DNA of 47,247 nt from Eubacteriales bacterium (lineage in GTDB: Bacteria; Bacillota; Clostridia; Lachnospirales; Lachnospiraceae). This document shows, one piece after another, positions 9,693 through 44,847 of the stretch. Under the pieces are notes generated by a model, which saw only the letters and a program-made list of their open reading frames with translations, had not been told where the DNA came from and did no database searches. The DNA is taken from positions 1-47,247 of the forward strand of contig JAUNGJ010000019.1 in the NCBI GenBank assembly GCA_030524585.1. The letters are read 5' to 3'. Numbering within the stretch: position 1 is the first letter of the stretch; each line of letters begins with the position of its first letter. A program made the position numbers and the translations under genes.

Positions 9693-10220
9693 TTAATGAC
9701 CGGAGGCCCATTCGGCGTACTGGGCGAGAATACGTATGGTGTCCAGTGGATGTTCCGGGCTGTGCTTCAAAAAGGCATGGAACGTTCCTCTTATAAGAAA
9801 TGTGATGAGGATTTCTTTTTCCAGATCATGCTCATATTCAGGGTGTTTCTTAAGAACCTGTTCCCGGATACTCTGTTCCAGACGGTCGACCATGACGCTT
9901 TGACGGCTGTCAGAAAAAAGGGTATGGAGGAGAACGGTCTGCGACATCATAGCCTCGCTGATCTCCAGGGTTGCACGCCCGGGGTTATCGATCAGGGTAT
10001 CCGGATGAGGGATCGAGCGGACGATATTGTTGATCAGCTCTGTTTCCATGGATTCTGACAGATCGTAGATGTCTCTGTAGTGCTGATAAAAAGTGGCTTT
10101 GTTGATAAAAGCAGCATCAGCAAGTTCCTTTACTGTAATTTTTTCAATGGGCTTTCTGGAGCGAAGCTCAATAAAGGCATTGGTAATATTGGTGCGTGTA
10201 CGCATGACTCGAAGATCCAT
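9693..10220 (-). CDS. TetR/AcrR-family regulator
   Basis: A 175-aa TetR-type repressor. The N-terminal helix-turn-helix is KITVKELADAAFINKATFYQ followed by HYRDIYDLSE, typical of the family; the C-terminal ligand domain is divergent. ATG 10220 is selected because AAAGGAG lies 7 bases upstream and the TTG at 10241 lacks a site. It is divergent from glgB, with a TTGAC dyad in the intergenic region that may be its operator. The target could be itself, glgB or the flanking efflux genes; sequence alone does not decide. Confidence 0.85.
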   Translation of the reverse strand: MDLRVMRTRTNITNAFIELRSRKPIEKITVKELADAAFINKATFYQHYRDIYDLSESMETELINNIVRSIPHPDTLIDNPGRATLEISEAMMSQTVLLHTLFSDSRQSVMVDRLEQSIREQVLKKHPEYEHDLEKEILITFLIRGTFHAFLKHSPEHPLDTIRILAQYAEWASGH

Positions 10221-10243
10221 AATAACTCCTTTTTTAGACAATT

Positions 10244-37365: not shown

Positions 37366-37965
37366 TTACCCTTTATATCCCCGAATGGTGCCACATTTAT
37401 CCATGTCAGGCTGTTTCTTCGTATTTTTTATATATGGCAGTAGTCTCTCCGGGGTGGAGGCGATTACAAGATCCATGAATTCCTCCGGGGATTCTGTGGC
37501 TTTTCCTACCAGCATTTTTCTGGACATATCGCAGACGCCGTGAATCCAGAATTCAATCATGAACAAAGTCTGCTTGTCAAGCCTGTCAAGTCCTTCGTTT
37601 TTCTTGATAGTAAGAATCAGTGTATTTTTCGCCTGCATAAAGACGCTGTCGTTTAGGTTATTCTGTCCGGTATTGTCGGCGTTGGCGAAGAAACGCTGGT
37701 TTTTTTCTGCATATTGGAACAATGCGAGGAGAGCGTCGTACAAAGATTCCCCTTTTTCCAGATTTTCAAACAGTTCCTTTTCTTTTTGCAGGTACATCCA
37801 GTTGATCAGGTCATGTTTATCTTTGAAATGATTATAAAAAGAACGGGAACTTACATGACAATTTGCGGTGATTTCCTGAACGGAAATCTTGTGCAGCGGT
37901 TTTTTTGAGAGCAGCTCCATAGCAGAATCAGCCAGAATCTGCTTGGTACTTCGTTTTTCCAGCAT
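37366..37965 (-). CDS. TetR-family regulator of the SDR/flavin-reductase pair
   Basis: A 199-aa TetR repressor. N-terminal HTH: KISVQEITANCHVSSRSFYN with HFKDKHDLINW. The C-terminal ligand domain resembles the DhaS/TetR_C type. GGGGTGAAG lies before ATG 37965. It is transcribed away from the SDR/OYE operon, with a consensus promoter (TTGAAC-17-TATAAT) and a perfect 8-bp dyad in the shared 224-bp intergenic region. It therefore probably represses the operon and releases it when a substrate or product binds. Confidence 0.88.
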   Translation of the reverse strand: MLEKRSTKQILADSAMELLSKKPLHKISVQEITANCHVSSRSFYNHFKDKHDLINWMYLQKEKELFENLEKGESLYDALLALFQYAEKNQRFFANADNTGQNNLNDSVFMQAKNTLILTIKKNEGLDRLDKQTLFMIEFWIHGVCDMSRKMLVGKATESPEEFMDLVIASTPERLLPYIKNTKKQPDMDKCGTIRGYKG

Positions 37966-38023
37966 AAAATTACTTCACCCCAGTAAATATCTTGCGTAAG
38001 CATTTTAATGAATACTCCTATAC

Positions 38024-38052
38024 ATTATAGCTAATTATTTTTGCGCGTTCAA
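38024..38052 (-). promoter_or_regulatory. Promoter of the tetR gene
   Basis: On the minus strand: TTGAAC (38052-38047), 17-base spacer, TATAAT (38029-38024), 58 bases before the tetR start at 37965. Confidence 0.7.
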
Positions 38053-38085
38053 TGGAAAACTGGAAAAATTGCACACTTTTCCTGA

Positions 38086-38105
38086 ATTGTGAAATGATTC
38101 ACAAT
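38086..38105. promoter_or_regulatory. Probable TetR operator
   Basis: ATTGTGAA-ATGA-TTCACAAT is a perfect 8-bp dyad with a 4-base spacer, the typical size of a TetR site, between the tetR and SDR genes. A wider inverted repeat, TCAATGGAA (38049-38057)/TTCCATTGA (38122-38130), brackets it, and its left arm overlaps the tetR -35 box. Confidence 0.7.
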
Positions 38106-38189
38106 ACGAAAAGAACATGAATTCCATTGAGCAGAGAGAAGAATTATACTGTTCATATCAAGTAAGCCACGGGAGAAGGAGGAACAGTT

Positions 38190-39032
38190 ATGGACAGTTA
38201 TATCAAAGAAAATTATATCAAAGACAAGGTAATCATCATTACCGGAGCTGCCAGTGGATTTGGAAAATTAGTTGCGGAAAAGACAACTGCTATGGGTGCA
38301 AAGGTCGTATGCGGAGACCGCCAGAAGGAGAAGCTGATCGAAGCGGTTGAGGCAATTCAGAAAAACGGTGGGGAAGCGGTGTACGCAGTGACTGATGTCA
38401 CGAAGAAAGAGGACGTGGACGCTCTGGCAAAACTTGCAGTAGATACATACGGAAGAATCGACATCCTTTTGAATAATGCAGGTACGATGCCGCTCAGCTT
38501 TTTTGCAGATCATGAGAGAGCATGGAAGGCATGGGATGACTGCATCGACACAAATATCAAGGGCGTTGTATATGGAATCAGCGCTGTGTACGATCAGATG
38601 ATGGCACAGGAAAAAGGACAGATTATTAATATTTCTTCGATTTATGCAAATCATGCAGTAGTTGGCGGATGCGTATACCAGGCATCCAAAATTGCGATCA
38701 AATACATTTCGGACGTGCTGCGGCAGGAAGCGTGGGGAAAAATTAAAGTTACAACTGTGAAGCCGACGGGTATTCCAACAACGGGATTGTTCGATTGTAT
38801 CATCAATCAGGAGACGACAATCGGAATCATCGGACAGAATGCGCTTGCAACAATGGCAATGCAGCAGGAACTTCCGGGACGCCCGGATCTTACCGAGCAG
38901 GACAGCATAAGAAATATGTACATTGACCCGTCTGTAATGGCGGATAATATCGTTTATGTTATGAACCAGCCGTGGGGCGTAAATATCAGTGACATTACAG
39001 TGCGGAGCTCAGGAGAGCCTTATCTGGTATAA
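38190..39032 (+). CDS. Short-chain dehydrogenase/reductase
   Basis: A 280-aa classical SDR, NAD(P)H-dependent oxidoreductase acting on an alcohol/ketone. Cofactor motif TGAASGFG (about 19-26) with GDR after the second strand, then NNAG and the active site INISS with Tyr163-x3-Lys167 (YQASK). The C-terminus is longer than average. AGAAGGAGG precedes ATG 38190. It is followed after 15 bases by a BaiCD/BaiH-like flavoprotein, so the pair may perform a dehydrogenation and an enoate reduction on one molecule, as in bile-acid or steroid pathways. Substrate not determinable. Confidence 0.9.
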   Translation: MDSYIKENYIKDKVIIITGAASGFGKLVAEKTTAMGAKVVCGDRQKEKLIEAVEAIQKNGGEAVYAVTDVTKKEDVDALAKLAVDTYGRIDILLNNAGTMPLSFFADHERAWKAWDDCIDTNIKGVVYGISAVYDQMMAQEKGQIINISSIYANHAVVGGCVYQASKIAIKYISDVLRQEAWGKIKVTTVKPTGIPTTGLFDCIINQETTIGIIGQNALATMAMQQELPGRPDLTEQDSIRNMYIDPSVMADNIVYVMNQPWGVNISDITVRSSGEPYLV

Positions 39033-39047
39033 GAGGAGGAAGCTAAA

Positions 39048-40964
39048 ATGGGACATAAATTTTTAGAGCCGATTACGATCGGAAAACAGGAGGTTAAGAA
39101 CCGGGTTGTATATCTTGCCATGGCAAAATGTTATTCCGGGATGGACGGATCAGTGAGTCCGAGAGATCTGGCGTATATTGCCTCCATCGCAAAGGGCGGA
39201 GTCGGAATCGTAATTCCGGGCGCTATGGTCGTAGATCCTGCATGGCCGTCGGTACTGCCGATGCAGCCGGTTATCAGCGAGGATAAATACATCCCCGGGC
39301 TTACAAAGCTGGCGGATACTGCACATGAAAACGGAGCAAAAATCTTATTCCAGCTCTGGCACCCGGGGCAGGTGGATTACAGCAGAGGAAATCCGCCGAC
39401 AATCAATGAGCTGAGTGTGGATCAGATTCATGAAATTCAGAAGAAATTTGTGGACGCTGCCGTGCGTGCTAAAAAAGCTGGTGCAGACGGAATAGAATTT
39501 CAGATGTGTCACAATTATCTTGCGGCGCAGTTTTTAAGTCCTCTCTTCAATCACCGTACAGATGAATATGGTCTGGATACTCTGGAAAATCAGGTGCGCT
39601 TTTCCGTAGAAATGCTGAAAATGCTCAGGGAAGCCATTGGACCGGAGATGATTCTCGCAGTGAAACTGCAGGGATTTGACGGAGTAGAAGGAGGAATCAC
39701 ACCGGAGATGGCAGCTTCCTTCGCACCGTTCATCGAGCAGTCCGGGGCAGATATGATTACCGTGAGTGCAGGAGGAAGTCTGACAGGTATCAATGTCATG
39801 TCAGGAGACGGAACAAGAGCGGAAGGATGGAAAGTAGAAGCATGCAACGCGGTTAAAAAGGCTGTTTCCATTCCGGTATGTGCAACCGGAAATATTCGCC
39901 ATCCGGAATATGTGGATGAGATTATCGAAGACGGAAAATGTGATATGGTCGGTATGGGCCGTGGTATTTTCGCAGAACGCGAGTGGGTAAATAAATGTGC
40001 AGAAGGAAGAGAAGACGAGCTGAAATACTGTATTTCCTGCATGAACTGCTGGAATTATGGATTCATCCCGGATCAGTCCGGCTGCAGTGTGAATCCGTAT
40101 GCAGGACGTGAATTATCATGCAAACCGCTCCCGAAAGACGGAGAGGGACGAATGGTCGTTGTTGTCGGAGCAGGCCCTGCCGGATGTGAGGCGGCGCTGA
40201 CGCTGGCAGAGCGCGGATTCAGGACAATTCTGTTTGAAAAGAGCGGAAGAATCGGCGGAATGGTAAATATTGCAAAATTACCTCCACATAAAGATAAAAT
40301 GGGCTGGAGCGTAACCTATTATGAAAATATGCTTGCAAAGTCTGATGTAGATTTGCGCCTGAATACGGAAGCGACTGCCGGGGACATTCTGAAACTGAAC
40401 CCATACGCAGTTGTAATTGCGGCAGGAAGCAATGAGACCTCTCTCCCGGTTCCGGGAATGGATGCGGAGAATGTTTTGCAGGCAAGGGTTGTTTTGGAAG
40501 AAGAATTTCAGACGAGCGGCAAAAATATAGTTGTAATCGGCGCTGGTCTGACCGGAATTGAGACAGCCATTTATATGAAAGAACAGGGCAATCATGTGAC
40601 GGTACTGGATTTTGCCAAAAGACCGAGTCTTGAAAATGCCGGTATGGGGGGAGAAGCCACAATGGAGATGGCACTGGAACTCAGCCGCGCAGAGGGAGAA
40701 GGAATTGTGGTAAAACACAGCCATAAAGTGCTGGAGTTTGCAGATGGCATGTTGAAAGCGGAAACCATTCCGGATGGAGAGAAAACAGAATTTCCAGCAG
40801 ATTACGTAGTGCTTTCCACGGGAATTAAACCGGCTGACGCTATTTACAATGAGCTTAAAATGGCAGGGCATCCGCTGGTACATAAGATTGGCGACGCAAA
40901 CTTTAATGGGAAGATTGTGACAGCCGTACAGGCAGGAAATAAATACGCATGTAATTTATTTTAA
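39048..40964 (+). CDS. NADH:flavin oxidoreductase with Fe-S and FAD domains (BaiCD/BaiH/FadH-like)
   Basis: 638 aa. N-terminal old-yellow-enzyme barrel (about 1-325) with FMN; substrate-site residues HNYLAAQFLSPLFNHRTDEY. Fe-S cysteines C328, C331, C334 and C346 (CISCMNCW then SGC). C-terminal FAD/NAD(P) domains begin VVVVGAGPAGCEAA, with a second dinucleotide fold VVIGAGLTGIE. Such proteins reduce activated C=C bonds: 2,4-dienoyl-CoA, delta-4-steroids, bile-acid intermediates, cinnamates. GAGGAGG precedes the ATG. It forms an operon with the SDR and ends at the terminator at 40992. Confidence 0.92.
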   Translation: MGHKFLEPITIGKQEVKNRVVYLAMAKCYSGMDGSVSPRDLAYIASIAKGGVGIVIPGAMVVDPAWPSVLPMQPVISEDKYIPGLTKLADTAHENGAKILFQLWHPGQVDYSRGNPPTINELSVDQIHEIQKKFVDAAVRAKKAGADGIEFQMCHNYLAAQFLSPLFNHRTDEYGLDTLENQVRFSVEMLKMLREAIGPEMILAVKLQGFDGVEGGITPEMAASFAPFIEQSGADMITVSAGGSLTGINVMSGDGTRAEGWKVEACNAVKKAVSIPVCATGNIRHPEYVDEIIEDGKCDMVGMGRGIFAEREWVNKCAEGREDELKYCISCMNCWNYGFIPDQSGCSVNPYAGRELSCKPLPKDGEGRMVVVVGAGPAGCEAALTLAERGFRTILFEKSGRIGGMVNIAKLPPHKDKMGWSVTYYENMLAKSDVDLRLNTEATAGDILKLNPYAVVIAAGSNETSLPVPGMDAENVLQARVVLEEEFQTSGKNIVVIGAGLTGIETAIYMKEQGNHVTVLDFAKRPSLENAGMGGEATMEMALELSRAEGEGIVVKHSHKVLEFADGMLKAETIPDGEKTEFPADYVVLSTGIKPADAIYNELKMAGHPLVHKIGDANFNGKIVTAVQAGNKYACNLF

Positions 40965-40991: not shown

Positions 40992-41034
40992 AAAGACGAT
41001 TTCCGGGATGAGAAGACCGGGAATCGTCTTTTTT
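40992..41034 (+). terminator. Intrinsic terminator of the SDR/flavin-reductase operon
   Basis: AAAGACGATTTCCGG (40992-41006) pairs with CCGGGAATCGTCTTT (41017-41031), one G-U pair, 10-base loop, run of six T. Confidence 0.85.
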
Positions 41035-41186: not shown

Positions 41187-43016
41187 ATGCATACAGAATT
41201 TTTGATGGGAAATGAGGCGATTGCCCTTGGAGCGATCGCGGCAGGGGTGAATTTAATCTCCGGTTATCCGGGAACGCCCTCCACGGAAGTGCTGGAGACG
41301 GTGGCAAAGCACCGCCGGGAAAACCAGTATGTGGAGTGGTCGGTGAATGAAAAAGCCGCCATGGAGGTTGCGGCGGGAGCAGCGTACTGCGGAGCGAGAG
41401 TGATGGTTACGATGAAGCAGGTAGGGCTTAACGTGGCGTCTGATCCGCTTATGAGTCTGGAATATATCGGAGTGAAAGGCGGAATGGTGATTCTGGTGGC
41501 AGATGATCCCGGTCCGATTTCATCCCAGACTGAGCAGGATACCCGGCATTTTTCGGCATTTTCCAAGCTTCCGTGTTTTGATCCGTCATCTGCCCAGGAG
41601 GCATATGAGATGGTGCAGGAGGCGTTTGAATTTTCAGAAAAATACGGGACACCGGTATTTTTTCGGCCGACGACGAGAGTCTGTCACGGATACGCGTCGG
41701 TTCTGGTCAGGGATGCGGAAGAATATACGGTACATGAGCCGGAAGGGTTTGTGAAGGACTCAAAGAGGTGGGTCATCTTTCCGCGGCTGTCCTATCAGAA
41801 TCATATAAAAATCGAAGCCCGGAATGAAGAATTATCCGAAGTGTTTTCCGGGTACGGGCGGAACCGGATCTATCCGGCGGATGAGGCAGACGCCAGTTTG
41901 AAAAAAGGAATCGCGGCAGGGGGAATCAGCTTTACCTATGCGATGGAGGCGCGCGAAGCAATCGGCAGGGTGCGTCTGTTTCAGGTAGCGACACCACATC
42001 CGTTTCCGGAGAAGAAGGCCTTGGAATTTCTGGAAGGTCTGGATGAAGTGCTGTGTCTGGAGGAGCTGGATCCGGTAATCGAGCGTGAGCTGACTTACAT
42101 CTGTGGAAAATATCATCTTCCGGTCAGAATATACGGAAAGTGTTCCCATCACGTGAAGAATGCGGGCGAGAACAGCAGAGACAGTGTGGCGGAGGATATG
42201 AGAAAATTCCTTGGAAGGGAGCAGACAGAAGAGAAGACACAGGATGCGTTTCCGGCGCCTCCAAAGCTTCCGGTGCGCCCGCCGGTCCTCTGTGCCGGGT
42301 GTCCGCACCGGGCGTCGTTCTACGCGGTGAAAAAGGCGATGAAAGGGAAGAAGACGATTTTCTGTGGAGATATTGGCTGTTATACGCTTGGAAATGCCAT
42401 GCCTCTTGACATGGTGGATACATGTCTGTGCATGGGGGCAGGTCTTGGAATTGCCCAGGGCGTAGGACGGATCGAACCGGACACCAGTTGTTTTGCATTT
42501 GTGGGAGATTCCACATTTTTTGCATCTGCAATCACCGGGGTGGTCAATGCGGTTTACAACCAGGCAGAGATGACGCTGGTGGTGCTGGATAATTCCACTA
42601 CGGCTATGACGGGTCACCAGCCCCATCCGGGAACCGGACGGACGATGATGGGACAGATGACAGAACGGGTGAATATAGAAGCGGTGCTCCGGGGAATCGG
42701 AGTTCAGGTGGTGGAGACGGCAGACCCGCTGGATCACGAAGCGGCGGTGGAGTGCGTGAAAAAAACAGCGGCACAGCCCGGCGTGAAAGCAATCATTTTC
42801 AAATCTCCCTGTATCGCGGTGGTGAAGCCGTCGGATGTCCTGAAAGTGGAAGAAGCGCGGTGTATCGGATGTAAGAAGTGTGTGAAGGAGCTGGGATGTC
42901 CGGCGCTGATCATAAAAGACGGAAAGGTCTGTATTGATGACGGCTTGTGTACAGGATGTACGCTCTGCAGTCAGATTTGCCCTGTGGGAGCGATCGGAGG
43001 TGGACAGAATGAATAA
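41187..43016 (+). CDS. iorA: Indolepyruvate:ferredoxin oxidoreductase, alpha subunit
   Basis: A 609-aa thiamine-diphosphate enzyme subunit. It oxidatively decarboxylates aryl pyruvates (from Trp, Phe, Tyr) to aryl-acetyl-CoA with reduced ferredoxin, in the cytoplasm of anaerobes. N-terminal pyrimidine-binding domain: GNEAIALGAIAAGVNLISGY, PGTPSTEV, ADDPGPISSQTEQDTRHF. TPP domain: CAGCPHRASF, GDIGCYTLG, GDSTFFASAITG. C-terminal ferredoxin domain with two 4Fe-4S motifs (CIGCKKC, CTGCTLCSQICP). GAGGTG precedes ATG 41187; it overlaps iorB by 8 bases. Confidence 0.95.
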   Translation: MHTEFLMGNEAIALGAIAAGVNLISGYPGTPSTEVLETVAKHRRENQYVEWSVNEKAAMEVAAGAAYCGARVMVTMKQVGLNVASDPLMSLEYIGVKGGMVILVADDPGPISSQTEQDTRHFSAFSKLPCFDPSSAQEAYEMVQEAFEFSEKYGTPVFFRPTTRVCHGYASVLVRDAEEYTVHEPEGFVKDSKRWVIFPRLSYQNHIKIEARNEELSEVFSGYGRNRIYPADEADASLKKGIAAGGISFTYAMEAREAIGRVRLFQVATPHPFPEKKALEFLEGLDEVLCLEELDPVIERELTYICGKYHLPVRIYGKCSHHVKNAGENSRDSVAEDMRKFLGREQTEEKTQDAFPAPPKLPVRPPVLCAGCPHRASFYAVKKAMKGKKTIFCGDIGCYTLGNAMPLDMVDTCLCMGAGLGIAQGVGRIEPDTSCFAFVGDSTFFASAITGVVNAVYNQAEMTLVVLDNSTTAMTGHQPHPGTGRTMMGQMTERVNIEAVLRGIGVQVVETADPLDHEAAVECVKKTAAQPGVKAIIFKSPCIAVVKPSDVLKVEEARCIGCKKCVKELGCPALIIKDGKVCIDDGLCTGCTLCSQICPVGAIGGGQNE

Positions 43017-43581
43017 AAATATTGTGTTGTGCGGCGTGGGAGGCCAGGGAACGGTTCTGGCATCCAAACTGATTGCGGCGGCAGCCATGGCAAAACATAT
43101 TCCGGTGATGAGCGCGGAGACGATCGGGATGGCGCAGAGAGGCGGCAGCGTGTTCAGCCATCTCCGGATGGGAGAAGGCCTGTATTCGCCGATGATTGCA
43201 GAGAGAACGGCGGATCTGATCATTGGATTTGAACCGGGGGAGACGGTTCGGATGCTTCCGTTCCTGAAAGAGGGAGGCCAGGTGATCGTAAGTGCGCGCC
43301 CGATTATGCCAGTCACGGCGACGCTTTCGGACTCGGGATACAACGGAGAGGAAATGATTGGGTATTTGAAAGCACATGTGGAAAATCTCACGGTGGTGGA
43401 TGCCGGGGAGGCATGTAAGGAGCTGGGATCCACAAAGGTTCTGAATATTCTGCTTCTGGGGAAGGCAGTGTCCACCGGGGCGCTGGGATTCACGGAAGAA
43501 GAGATCCGGGCAGTGATAAAGGAAAAAGTGCCGGAGAAATTTCATGAATTGAATTTCCGGGCTCTTACATACGCAAAATAA
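43009..43581 (+). CDS. iorB: Indolepyruvate:ferredoxin oxidoreductase, beta subunit
   Basis: A 190-aa partner of IorA, the gamma-type domain of 2-oxoacid:ferredoxin oxidoreductases. Features are NIVLCGVGGQGTVLASKLIA at the N-terminus, SAETIGMAQRGGSVFSHLRM and DLIIGFEPGETVRML. ATG 43009 lies inside the end of iorA with GGAGGTGG upstream; the longer frame to 42934 is antisensical for the family. Together IorAB is probably the complete enzyme. Confidence 0.94.
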   Translation: MNKNIVLCGVGGQGTVLASKLIAAAAMAKHIPVMSAETIGMAQRGGSVFSHLRMGEGLYSPMIAERTADLIIGFEPGETVRMLPFLKEGGQVIVSARPIMPVTATLSDSGYNGEEMIGYLKAHVENLTVVDAGEACKELGSTKVLNILLLGKAVSTGALGFTEEEIRAVIKEKVPEKFHELNFRALTYAK

Positions 43582-43611
43582 GAGACAGTAAAAAGAAAGG
43601 AAAACAGGAAT

Positions 43612-44847
43612 ATGCAGATTTCGGACTTACAGATTGGTCAGGTAAATAAACAGATAAAAGCACTGGTAGATGCAGGCAGTTTTTATGGGAAAAAACTGGA
43701 AGAAGCCGGAATTTCCGGTATCACGACAGCGGAGGATTTTGAAAAGCTGCCGTTTTCTGAGAAAAATGATTTAAGAGAGGCATACCCGCTGGGACTAATG
43801 ACGGCGCCGGAGGAGGAAATCGTCAGAATTCATTCTTCTTCCGGAACGACGGGGCTTCCGGTTATTATCCCTTATACGGCAAAGGACGTGGATGATTGGG
43901 CGATTATGTTCAGACGGTGCTACGAGATGGCAGGAATCACGAACAGAGACCGGATTCAGATTACGCCCGGGTACGGACTGTGGACGGCCGGCATCGGCTT
44001 TCAGAACGGTGCGGAAAAACTGGGAGCCATGGTGATTCCAATGGGCCCGGGAAATACGGACAAACAGCTTCAGATGATGATGGATATGGAGAGTACGGTT
44101 CTGTGTTCTACCTCATCCTATGCACTTTTGCTGGCAGAGGAAATCTCAAAGCGGGGAATCAAGGATAAGATTCACCTGAAAAAAGGCGTGATCGGTTCCG
44201 AGAGATGGGGAGAAAAGATGCGTCAGCGTATTTCCAGCGAGCTGGGCATTGAATTATATGACATTTACGGATTGACGGAAATCTATGGACCGGGAATCGG
44301 AATCAATTGTAAATATGATACCGGAATGCATTACTGGGACGATTATCTGTACATCGAAATCATCGACCCGGTGACGTTAAAGCCGCTGCCGGACGGGGAA
44401 CTGGGAGAGATTGTGATTACGACGCTGGTAAAGGAAGGAGCGCCGCTGATTCGTTACCGGACCCACGACCTGTCCAGAATCATACCAGGAGAGTGTCCGT
44501 GCGGAAGTCCTTATCCGCGGCTTGACACGATCATGGGAAGAACCGACGACATGATGAAAATCAAGGGTGTCAATGTATTCCCGAGTCAGATTGAAGAGAT
44601 ACTGCGTGAGTTCCCGGAGGTGTCCAGCGAATATCAGATTCGTATTTCTCATTTGGACGGTAAGGATACCATGCGTATCTATGTGGAGACAAATGGAACA
44701 GTTGATTTCCAGAAACTGGCAGGACGGATCGCGGGAACAGTGAAGAGCCGGATCGGTTTCACACCGCTGGTAAAAGTGGTGGAGCTTGGCGTGCTGCCGC
44801 GCAGTGAAAAGAAATCGAAACGGGTAATAGATGAACGGTATAGCTAG
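43612..44847 (+). CDS. paaK: Phenylacetate-CoA ligase family protein
   Basis: A 411-aa AMP-forming acyl-CoA ligase of the PaaK type, 31 bases after iorB with AAAGGAAA upstream. The AMP-binding P-loop is HSSSGTTGLPVIIPY (about 83-97); then YGLTEIYGPG, and the C-terminal TDDMMKIKGVNVFPSQIEEI. Family enzymes make phenylacetyl-CoA (or indoleacetyl-CoA). Next to iorAB it could run in either direction: charging aryl acetates for reductive carboxylation to amino acids, or releasing acid and ATP from aryl-acetyl-CoA. Length is somewhat short but all core motifs are present. Confidence 0.92.
   Translation: MQISDLQIGQVNKQIKALVDAGSFYGKKLEEAGISGITTAEDFEKLPFSEKNDLREAYPLGLMTAPEEEIVRIHSSSGTTGLPVIIPYTAKDVDDWAIMFRRCYEMAGITNRDRIQITPGYGLWTAGIGFQNGAEKLGAMVIPMGPGNTDKQLQMMMDMESTVLCSTSSYALLLAEEISKRGIKDKIHLKKGVIGSERWGEKMRQRISSELGIELYDIYGLTEIYGPGIGINCKYDTGMHYWDDYLYIEIIDPVTLKPLPDGELGEIVITTLVKEGAPLIRYRTHDLSRIIPGECPCGSPYPRLDTIMGRTDDMMKIKGVNVFPSQIEEILREFPEVSSEYQIRISHLDGKDTMRIYVETNGTVDFQKLAGRIAGTVKSRIGFTPLVKVVELGVLPRSEKKSKRVIDERYS

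Follow-up and report, generated by a model that had tools for sequence, protein, structure and literature searches.

A TetR-type regulator gene facing an SDR and Fe-S old yellow enzyme operon in a Lachnospiraceae genome: a candidate two-step redox module

Introduction

What chemistry is served by a TetR-family regulator gene that stands back to back with genes for a short-chain dehydrogenase/reductase (SDR) and an old yellow enzyme (OYE)? Such a set lies at positions 37366-40964 of contig JAUNGJ010000019.1 from a Lachnospiraceae bacterium presumed to live in a gut (assembly GCA_030524585.1), the 47,247-nucleotide stretch that is called the window below. Iron-sulphur (Fe-S) OYEs of gut anaerobes have recently been reported to reduce bile acids, steroid hormones, bilirubin and isoflavones, and the original prediction had likened the enzyme of the window to the bile-acid proteins BaiCD and BaiH. 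In our analysis the three genes probably represent a TetR-regulated two-gene operon that carries out two connected redox reactions on a single small molecule, a reading that covers both directions of the reaction. We read them in this way because the motifs of both enzymes are intact, a terminator follows their genes, SDR and OYE genes are paired repeatedly and are enriched next to each other across the genome, and there are precedents in the xdo operon and in DZNR with DHDR.

Results

The genes and the end of the operon

All three open reading frames (ORFs) of the original prediction were confirmed in position and strand, and their families are backed by Pfam domains:

37366-37965, reverse strand: TetR-family regulator, 199 aa (TetR_N and TetR_C_8, Pfam)
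38177-38182, forward strand: AGGAGG ribosome-binding site of the SDR gene (sequence read directly)
38190-39032, forward strand: SDR, 280 aa (adh_short, Pfam)
39034-39039, forward strand: AGGAGG ribosome-binding site of the OYE gene (sequence read directly)
39048-40964, forward strand: FadH-type OYE reductase, 638 aa (Oxidored_FMN and Pyr_redox_2, Pfam)
40992-41031, forward strand: intrinsic terminator closing the SDR-OYE operon before the ior-paaK genes (fold energy against shuffles)

The SDR and OYE genes are separated by 15 bp and the terminator, a hairpin with a T run (-24.1 kcal/mol, z -6.1) that the original prediction does not mention, was matched in stability by none of 200 shuffles, in agreement with the two-gene operon that had been proposed. 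It is absent from the consensus-scan list, probably because its loop is longer than the scan permits. Downstream on the same strand, at 41187-44847, are the genes for the alpha and beta subunits of indolepyruvate ferredoxin oxidoreductase and then for a PaaK-type CoA ligase (43612-44847); since the terminator is strong, the SDR-OYE operon should end ahead of them. The statement that the enzymes stand without a CoA ligase is correct for the operon itself, although the PaaK-type ligase is nearby, past the terminator. No bai gene was found among the eight window genes scanned against NCBIfam.

As direct downstream neighbours on the same strand, the ior-paaK genes could suggest that the SDR and OYE take part in aromatic 2-oxoacid metabolism together with the ferredoxin oxidoreductase and the ligase. 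This is improbable given the terminator between the operons, on which ground we reject membership of the three genes in the downstream unit, and given that no ior-paaK genes were recognised, by eye in the ORF lists, near the other two SDR-OYE pairs of this lineage (contig C76 and genome G026, below).

The SDR recurs next to an OYE

The window SDR has the features of a classical SDR, with TGAASGFG (T18-G25) at the TGxxxGxG motif and N122, S150, Y163 and K167 as the N-S-Y-K set. At 1e-45 it is matched in 2 of 397 genomes of the family, the window's own and one from another genus (G026). In the phylum 7 of 388 genomes match, the window's own included, the other six being partial matches to the generic Rossmann core (163-186 bits outside the window genome against 520-545 for its own two copies). 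The clade has three known members, the window SDR, the G026 SDR (57% identical to it) and a paralogue on contig C76 of the window genome (50%), and all three adjoin an OYE. They carry 26-28 residues in C-terminal columns that are gapped in all eight generic SDRs taken from the phylum search for comparison; as some of these residues lie at the extreme tail, the insertion amounts to about 25.

On C76 the paralogous SDR gene lies directly before an OYE gene whose product is 46-47% identical to the window OYE, in the same order as in the window and followed by a major facilitator superfamily (MFS) transporter gene, whereas the SDR and OYE that come next in similarity within this genome reach 33-34% and 39%. 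In G026 a TetR-type gene is divergent from an OYE-SDR pair. The OYE of this pair belongs to a distant branch of the tree described below, and not to the window clade, so that the SDR lineage retains an OYE partner, though not always the same one. Conservation of the three-gene order, which had been named as a check, is therefore seen in part: the set itself recurs in G026, but with the enzyme genes reversed.

The pairing extends well beyond this lineage. Among 98 genomes searched with PF00724 at 1e-20, 49 had an OYE; the window genome is one of these and has the maximum of 19, and the counts in two congeneric species are 14 and 13. The window genome also encodes 17 SDRs at 1e-10, six of which lie within 500 bp of an OYE (0.42 expected) and 12 within 3 kb (0.79 expected), and the window operon is one among several SDR-OYE modules of this genome. 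Both superfamilies are large and have many roles, and the two genes might have been chance neighbours with unrelated functions. This is very unlikely because of the second module, the recurrence in another genus and the genome-wide enrichment, to which the 15-bp gap may be added.

Several points weigh against a conserved, regulated pair. The C76 contig starts just before the SDR gene, so the regulator side lies beyond its edge, and no SDR was detected in the 16-kb region around the OYE of G271, the closest to the window OYE outside its own genome (45%). The TetR proteins of the window and G026 are 27% alike over 154 residues, which is unspecific, as another TetR-type gene of the window (9693-10241) reaches 26%. 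From the identities it also appears that the pair has not simply co-evolved, because the window SDR shares 57% identity with the G026 protein and 50% with its own paralogue, whereas the OYE is closer to that of the paralogous module. Since the searches yielded no more than three SDRs and three OYEs belonging to these clades, co-evolution rests on few cases, and the adjacency calculation is rough in that SDR genes were taken as independent and contig ends and clustering were ignored.

Other regions of a similar kind were seen. Convergent with the SDR-OYE-MFS module of C76 is the gene for a 389-aa protein (L022:4094-5263) with one weak TetR_N match and, by eye, a second TetR-type unit. On contig C53 of the same genome another divergent regulator, TetR-type by eye, faces an SDR-OYE pair (L029:4629-8195) whose enzymes resemble their window counterparts at only some 30%; the intergenic region there has an AT-rich dyad with perfect arms of 17 bp (L029:5327-5364). 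In eight plasmid regions with class-I OYEs that were considered as xdo candidates, two of them unannotated and read as ORFs, no divergent TetR gene with an SDR-OYE pair was seen; in two, an SDR gene immediately preceded that of the OYE. Elsewhere in the window genome two OYE genes about 1.2 kb apart (L028:2967-8148), unlike the window OYE, have very close counterparts in G304, of the same genus (L109:6222-11448; branches 0.07-0.1).

The OYE lies outside the tested clades of known function

The window OYE has the FadH-type architecture, with a flavin mononucleotide (FMN) barrel, four cluster cysteines, a flavin adenine dinucleotide (FAD)/NAD(P) domain and a catalytic Tyr. The special likeness to BaiCD and BaiH that had been suggested was not borne out. 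On NCBIfam the OYE scores 416.9 bits with BilR, the long bilirubin reductase (cut-off 750), 407.2 with BaiCD (NF041087; cut-off 825) and 401 with the mycofactocin-linked OYE (cut-off 793), values that are about equal and all well below the cut-offs; positive references for BaiCD and the 5-beta-reductases reach 955.8 and 1041.6 bits on NF041087. Ten of the 19 OYEs of the genome were scanned in the same way and none was above cut-off among the families shown.

A maximum-likelihood tree was made of 47 OYEs, comprising all 19 of the window genome, relatives, E. coli FadH and plasmid OYEs; BaiH, OsrB, DZNR and the enoate reductases have no reference in it. The window OYE forms a clade with its C76 paralogue and the OYE of G271, which is from another genus (100/100), while the four BaiCD/5-beta-reductase rows form a separate clade (100/100) outside which all 19 OYEs of the window genome fall. 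FadH is placed elsewhere, grouped with another row, and its His252, the partner of Tyr166, aligns with Ser244 of the window OYE. The window clade is itself part of a nine-row set (99/99) with six OYEs that lack an assigned function, two of which are tied to acetoacetate-decarboxylase-like proteins, one by Pfam and the other by eye only. We therefore reject BaiCD (407 of 825 bits, separate clade) and FadH (other branch, Ser244) as identities. The phylogeny, which had been proposed as the check on this enzyme, places it with neither BaiCD, the steroid 5-beta-reductases nor FadH. As the OYE groups with none of the functionally known clades open to testing here, the proposal that its substrate is not a bile acid is plausible.

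Close relatives are rare at the cut-offs used, which differ between searches whose samples overlap: with the window's own genome counted, a match was found in 1 of 299 genomes of the family (1e-180), 1 of 11 of the genus (1e-130), 2 of 392 of the order (1e-150) and 1 of 391 of the class (1e-130). At 1e-130 the remaining 10 species of the genus lack a counterpart, and a scan of named genomes gave only two distant proteobacterial OYEs (32%).

Some further OYEs may be recorded here. In G024 an OYE is fused to an acetoacetate-decarboxylase-like domain (PF06314; L111:1205-4333), and in the window genome a decarboxylase-like gene of similar appearance, judged by eye, adjoins an OYE of the same tree neighbourhood (L024:6981-9802). 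FadH-type OYE genes are carried by plasmids of Lactococcus (L046:7486-9456) and Enterococcus (L047:5001-6938). The Lactococcus plasmid, among the best plasmid hits, was considered as a possible equol plasmid, but its OYE is flanked on one side by an insertion sequence element and a SpoVG-family gene and on the other by an AraC-type regulator gene and optrA.

A shortened loop at the active site

The positions within the OYE gene that concern the active site and the cluster are as follows:

39366-39398, forward strand: codons of approximately residues 107-117, site of the shortened loop (alignment)
39510-39518, forward strand: codons of H155-N156-Y157, the catalytic Tyr preceded by Asn (aligned with Tyr166 of FadH)
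40029-40085, forward strand: codons of the cluster cysteines C328, C331, C334 and C346, CxxCxxC-x11-C (alignment)

All 24 rows of an alignment have the four 4Fe-4S cluster cysteines. By sequence alignment, on which the description of the loop is based, 14-17 residues separate the HPG motif from the next conserved helix in the window clade, against 24-51 in the other 44 rows, making the active-site loop at least seven residues shorter than in any of these. Of eleven alignment columns with a residue in 40 or more of the 47 rows, members of the window clade have none or one occupied, and all other rows have 9-11 occupied. Together with the additional residues of the SDR, the short loop suggests a substrate unlike those of the characterised relatives.

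Residues with described roles, Tyr166 as the catalytic residue of FadH and N166, S171 and N253 in the steroid-hormone 5-beta-reductase (PMC12238238), allow a closer comparison. The Asn before the catalytic Tyr is present (N156-Y157), whereas Q161 and G243 occupy the columns that hold S171 and N253, with S and N in row L088. An identity as a steroid 5-beta-reductase is rejected on these two residues and on the failure to fall in that clade. Similarly, neither the HGDR motif reported for BilR nor the AHAH motif reported for BilV (PMC13252198) is present, the region at the HGDR position reading CHNYLAAQ, and both of these identities are rejected, that of BilR also on its score (417 of 750 bits). 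An OYE at L097:595-2529 has the AHAH sequence and is a candidate member of the BilV group.

A module for steroids or bile acids, in which the OYE would reduce a 3-oxo-delta4 group and the SDR would be a hydroxysteroid dehydrogenase (HSDH), is unlikely. Within the genus, G304 and G306 do carry 1154-aa proteins with a BaiCD/5-beta-reductase-clade OYE part (L100:3482-6946 and L101:3106-6570), that of G304 being supported by NCBIfam and Pfam as well. Against this reading, the window OYE scores far below the BaiCD cut-off, falls in a separate clade and leaves S171 and N253 unmatched, and none of the eight scanned genes of the window is a bai gene. So far as the sequences go, the shared active-site Asn is the sole link to the steroid reductases that was found, and the steroid idea rests on that one residue. 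The G304 protein also has an Epimerase-type domain (Pfam), like the published fusion of a 5-beta-reductase with a 3-beta-HSDH.

The intergenic region

Two features were considered between the divergent genes:

38024-38052, reverse strand: tetR promoter-like site, TTGAAC-17-TATAAT, 10/12 (consensus scan)
38086-38105, no strand assigned: perfect dyad ATTGTGAA-ATGA-TTCACAAT, candidate operator, which also fits TGTGA-N6-TCACA

A regulator gene with its own promoter and a perfect dyad had been described, and both the site and the dyad exist, but neither exceeds chance. The scanned region contains nine promoter-like sites where 8.4 are expected, and the strongest one ahead of the SDR gene scores only 8/12. 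The dyad, with perfect arms ATTGTGAA and TTCACAAT and a spacer of 4, was equalled in 68 of 1000 intergenic shuffles, counting perfect dyads with arms of at least 8 and a spacer of at most 12. Its 18-bp core has a single zero-mismatch site in the genome, and 19 sites with up to two mismatches against 11 for a control pattern. The dyad also fits TGTGA-N6-TCACA, which we take to be the CRP-type consensus, and the G026 intergenic region has dyads of different sequence, the window dyad not among them. For these reasons the dyad is rejected as support for a TetR operator. Repression by the TetR protein is likewise an assumption, because its best NCBIfam model, far below cut-off (78.7 bits against 129), is the activator DhaS, and because the dyad is matched by shuffles and fits the CRP-type core.

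Discussion

Proposed mechanism

In the two-step module that we favour, the TetR protein would control the SDR-OYE operon, presumably by sensing a ligand, and the molecule would be one that the cell meets only at times. The chemistry of the two enzymes would follow from their families. With NAD(P)H as the cofactor, the SDR would interconvert a ketone and the corresponding secondary alcohol, and the OYE would reduce a C=C bond conjugated to the carbonyl handled by the SDR. As in other members of the family, NAD(P)H would reduce FAD, from which electrons would reach FMN by way of the 4Fe-4S cluster; FMN would then donate a hydride to the C=C bond while Tyr157 supplied the proton. Two options are open to such a pair. 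In the reductive one an enone would be converted to a ketone and then to a saturated alcohol, acting as an electron sink in the manner of daidzein to equol; in the redox-neutral one an allylic alcohol would be oxidised to an enone and this reduced to a ketone, as proposed for xdo. We infer both the common substrate and the direction, and for the latter lean slightly towards reduction.

A more far-reaching idea, which we hold to be doubtful, is that the window clade represents a functionally new subfamily among Fe-S OYEs which, through its short loop and Asn-Tyr pair, has evolved convergently to act on bulky ring enones resembling steroids, sterols or flavonoids, that the operon is an exchangeable cassette in which the SDR is kept and the OYE swapped, and that the genome is a collection of such modules.

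Many Fe-S OYE paralogues await substrates, and a host with 19 of them and with six SDRs at most 500 bp from an OYE would be a compact test bed. An adjoining SDR hints at which OYE uses a ketone-bearing substrate, the regulator offers a handle for the inducer, and the short-loop OYE clade is a clear structural target, although the substrate itself is a guess.

Comparison with known systems

Among the titles and abstracts listed in literature searches, none describes an SDR-OYE operon of this kind in a Firmicute. Two published pairs of enzymes are of most relevance, XdpA with XdpB, a single-domain OYE, and DZNR with DHDR, which is an SDR. The first pair belongs to the xdo operon of Agrobacterium bohemicum and other Proteobacteria (XdpR, TetR; XdpA, SDR; XdpB, OYE), a precedent that the original prediction does not name and to which no physiological substrate has been assigned; there the suggestion is of an alcohol being oxidised to an enone or enal that is then reduced by the OYE, the operator is TCATGA-N6-TCATGA, the TetR protein represses both promoters and the OYE is of subgroup C1 with GxxDYP (PMC5891007). 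As in the window, the TetR gene is divergent from a tandem of OYE and dehydrogenase genes. XdpB differs from the window OYE, a 638-aa Fe-S/FAD/FMN enzyme that lacks the C-terminal GxxDYP, and TCATGA does not occur in the window intergenic region (37966-38189).

It is conceivable, though we would not expect it, that the window operon works in the same redox-neutral way, the SDR oxidising an allylic alcohol to an enone or enal, the OYE spending the resulting NAD(P)H on the C=C bond and TetR repressing until the substrate or enone appears. Besides the layout, the SDR gene comes first both in the window and in the C76 module, as this sub-case of the two-step reading would have it, but the OYE gene is first in G026. 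The SDRs beside three plasmid class-I OYEs, moreover, are 24% and 29% identical to that of the window, the third not being detected.

DZNR and DHDR are reported to act in sequence in equol formation (PMC11574389, PMC8898433), and as in the two-step module proposed here an Fe-S flavoenzyme of the same architecture is coupled with a ketone reductase, a likeness of type. A flavonoid or isoflavone module on this pattern, in which the OYE would act on an isoflavone or chalcone enone and the SDR on the resulting ketone, is a further sub-case that has this published pair in its favour but seems rather unlikely. The equol cluster is described as restricted to Eggerthellaceae and as having further conserved genes, among them DDRC, THDR and a devR homologue, and in the scan of eight window genes none of these was seen.

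The BaiCD/5-beta-reductase clade shares with the window the enzyme architecture, the Asn-Tyr pair of the steroid-hormone reductases and a dehydrogenase gene that is often adjacent or fused (PMC12238238). It differs in its full-support separation in the tree, in S171 and N253, which the window OYE does not match, and in a longer loop, and the fused partner of the 5-beta-reductase is a Rossmann-fold 3-beta-HSDH/isomerase (the Epimerase-type domain in G304) and not an SDR of the window type. BilR and BilV resemble the window OYE in architecture and differ in their HGDR and AHAH motifs, while E. coli FadH has the same domain order and catalytic Tyr but is only 28-30% identical, lies in another branch and has His252 where the window has Ser244. 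The layout of the window is thus that of xdo, already known from other bacteria, and its OYE is of the class of DZNR and BaiCD, with both enzymes coming from rare, uncharacterised branches of their families.

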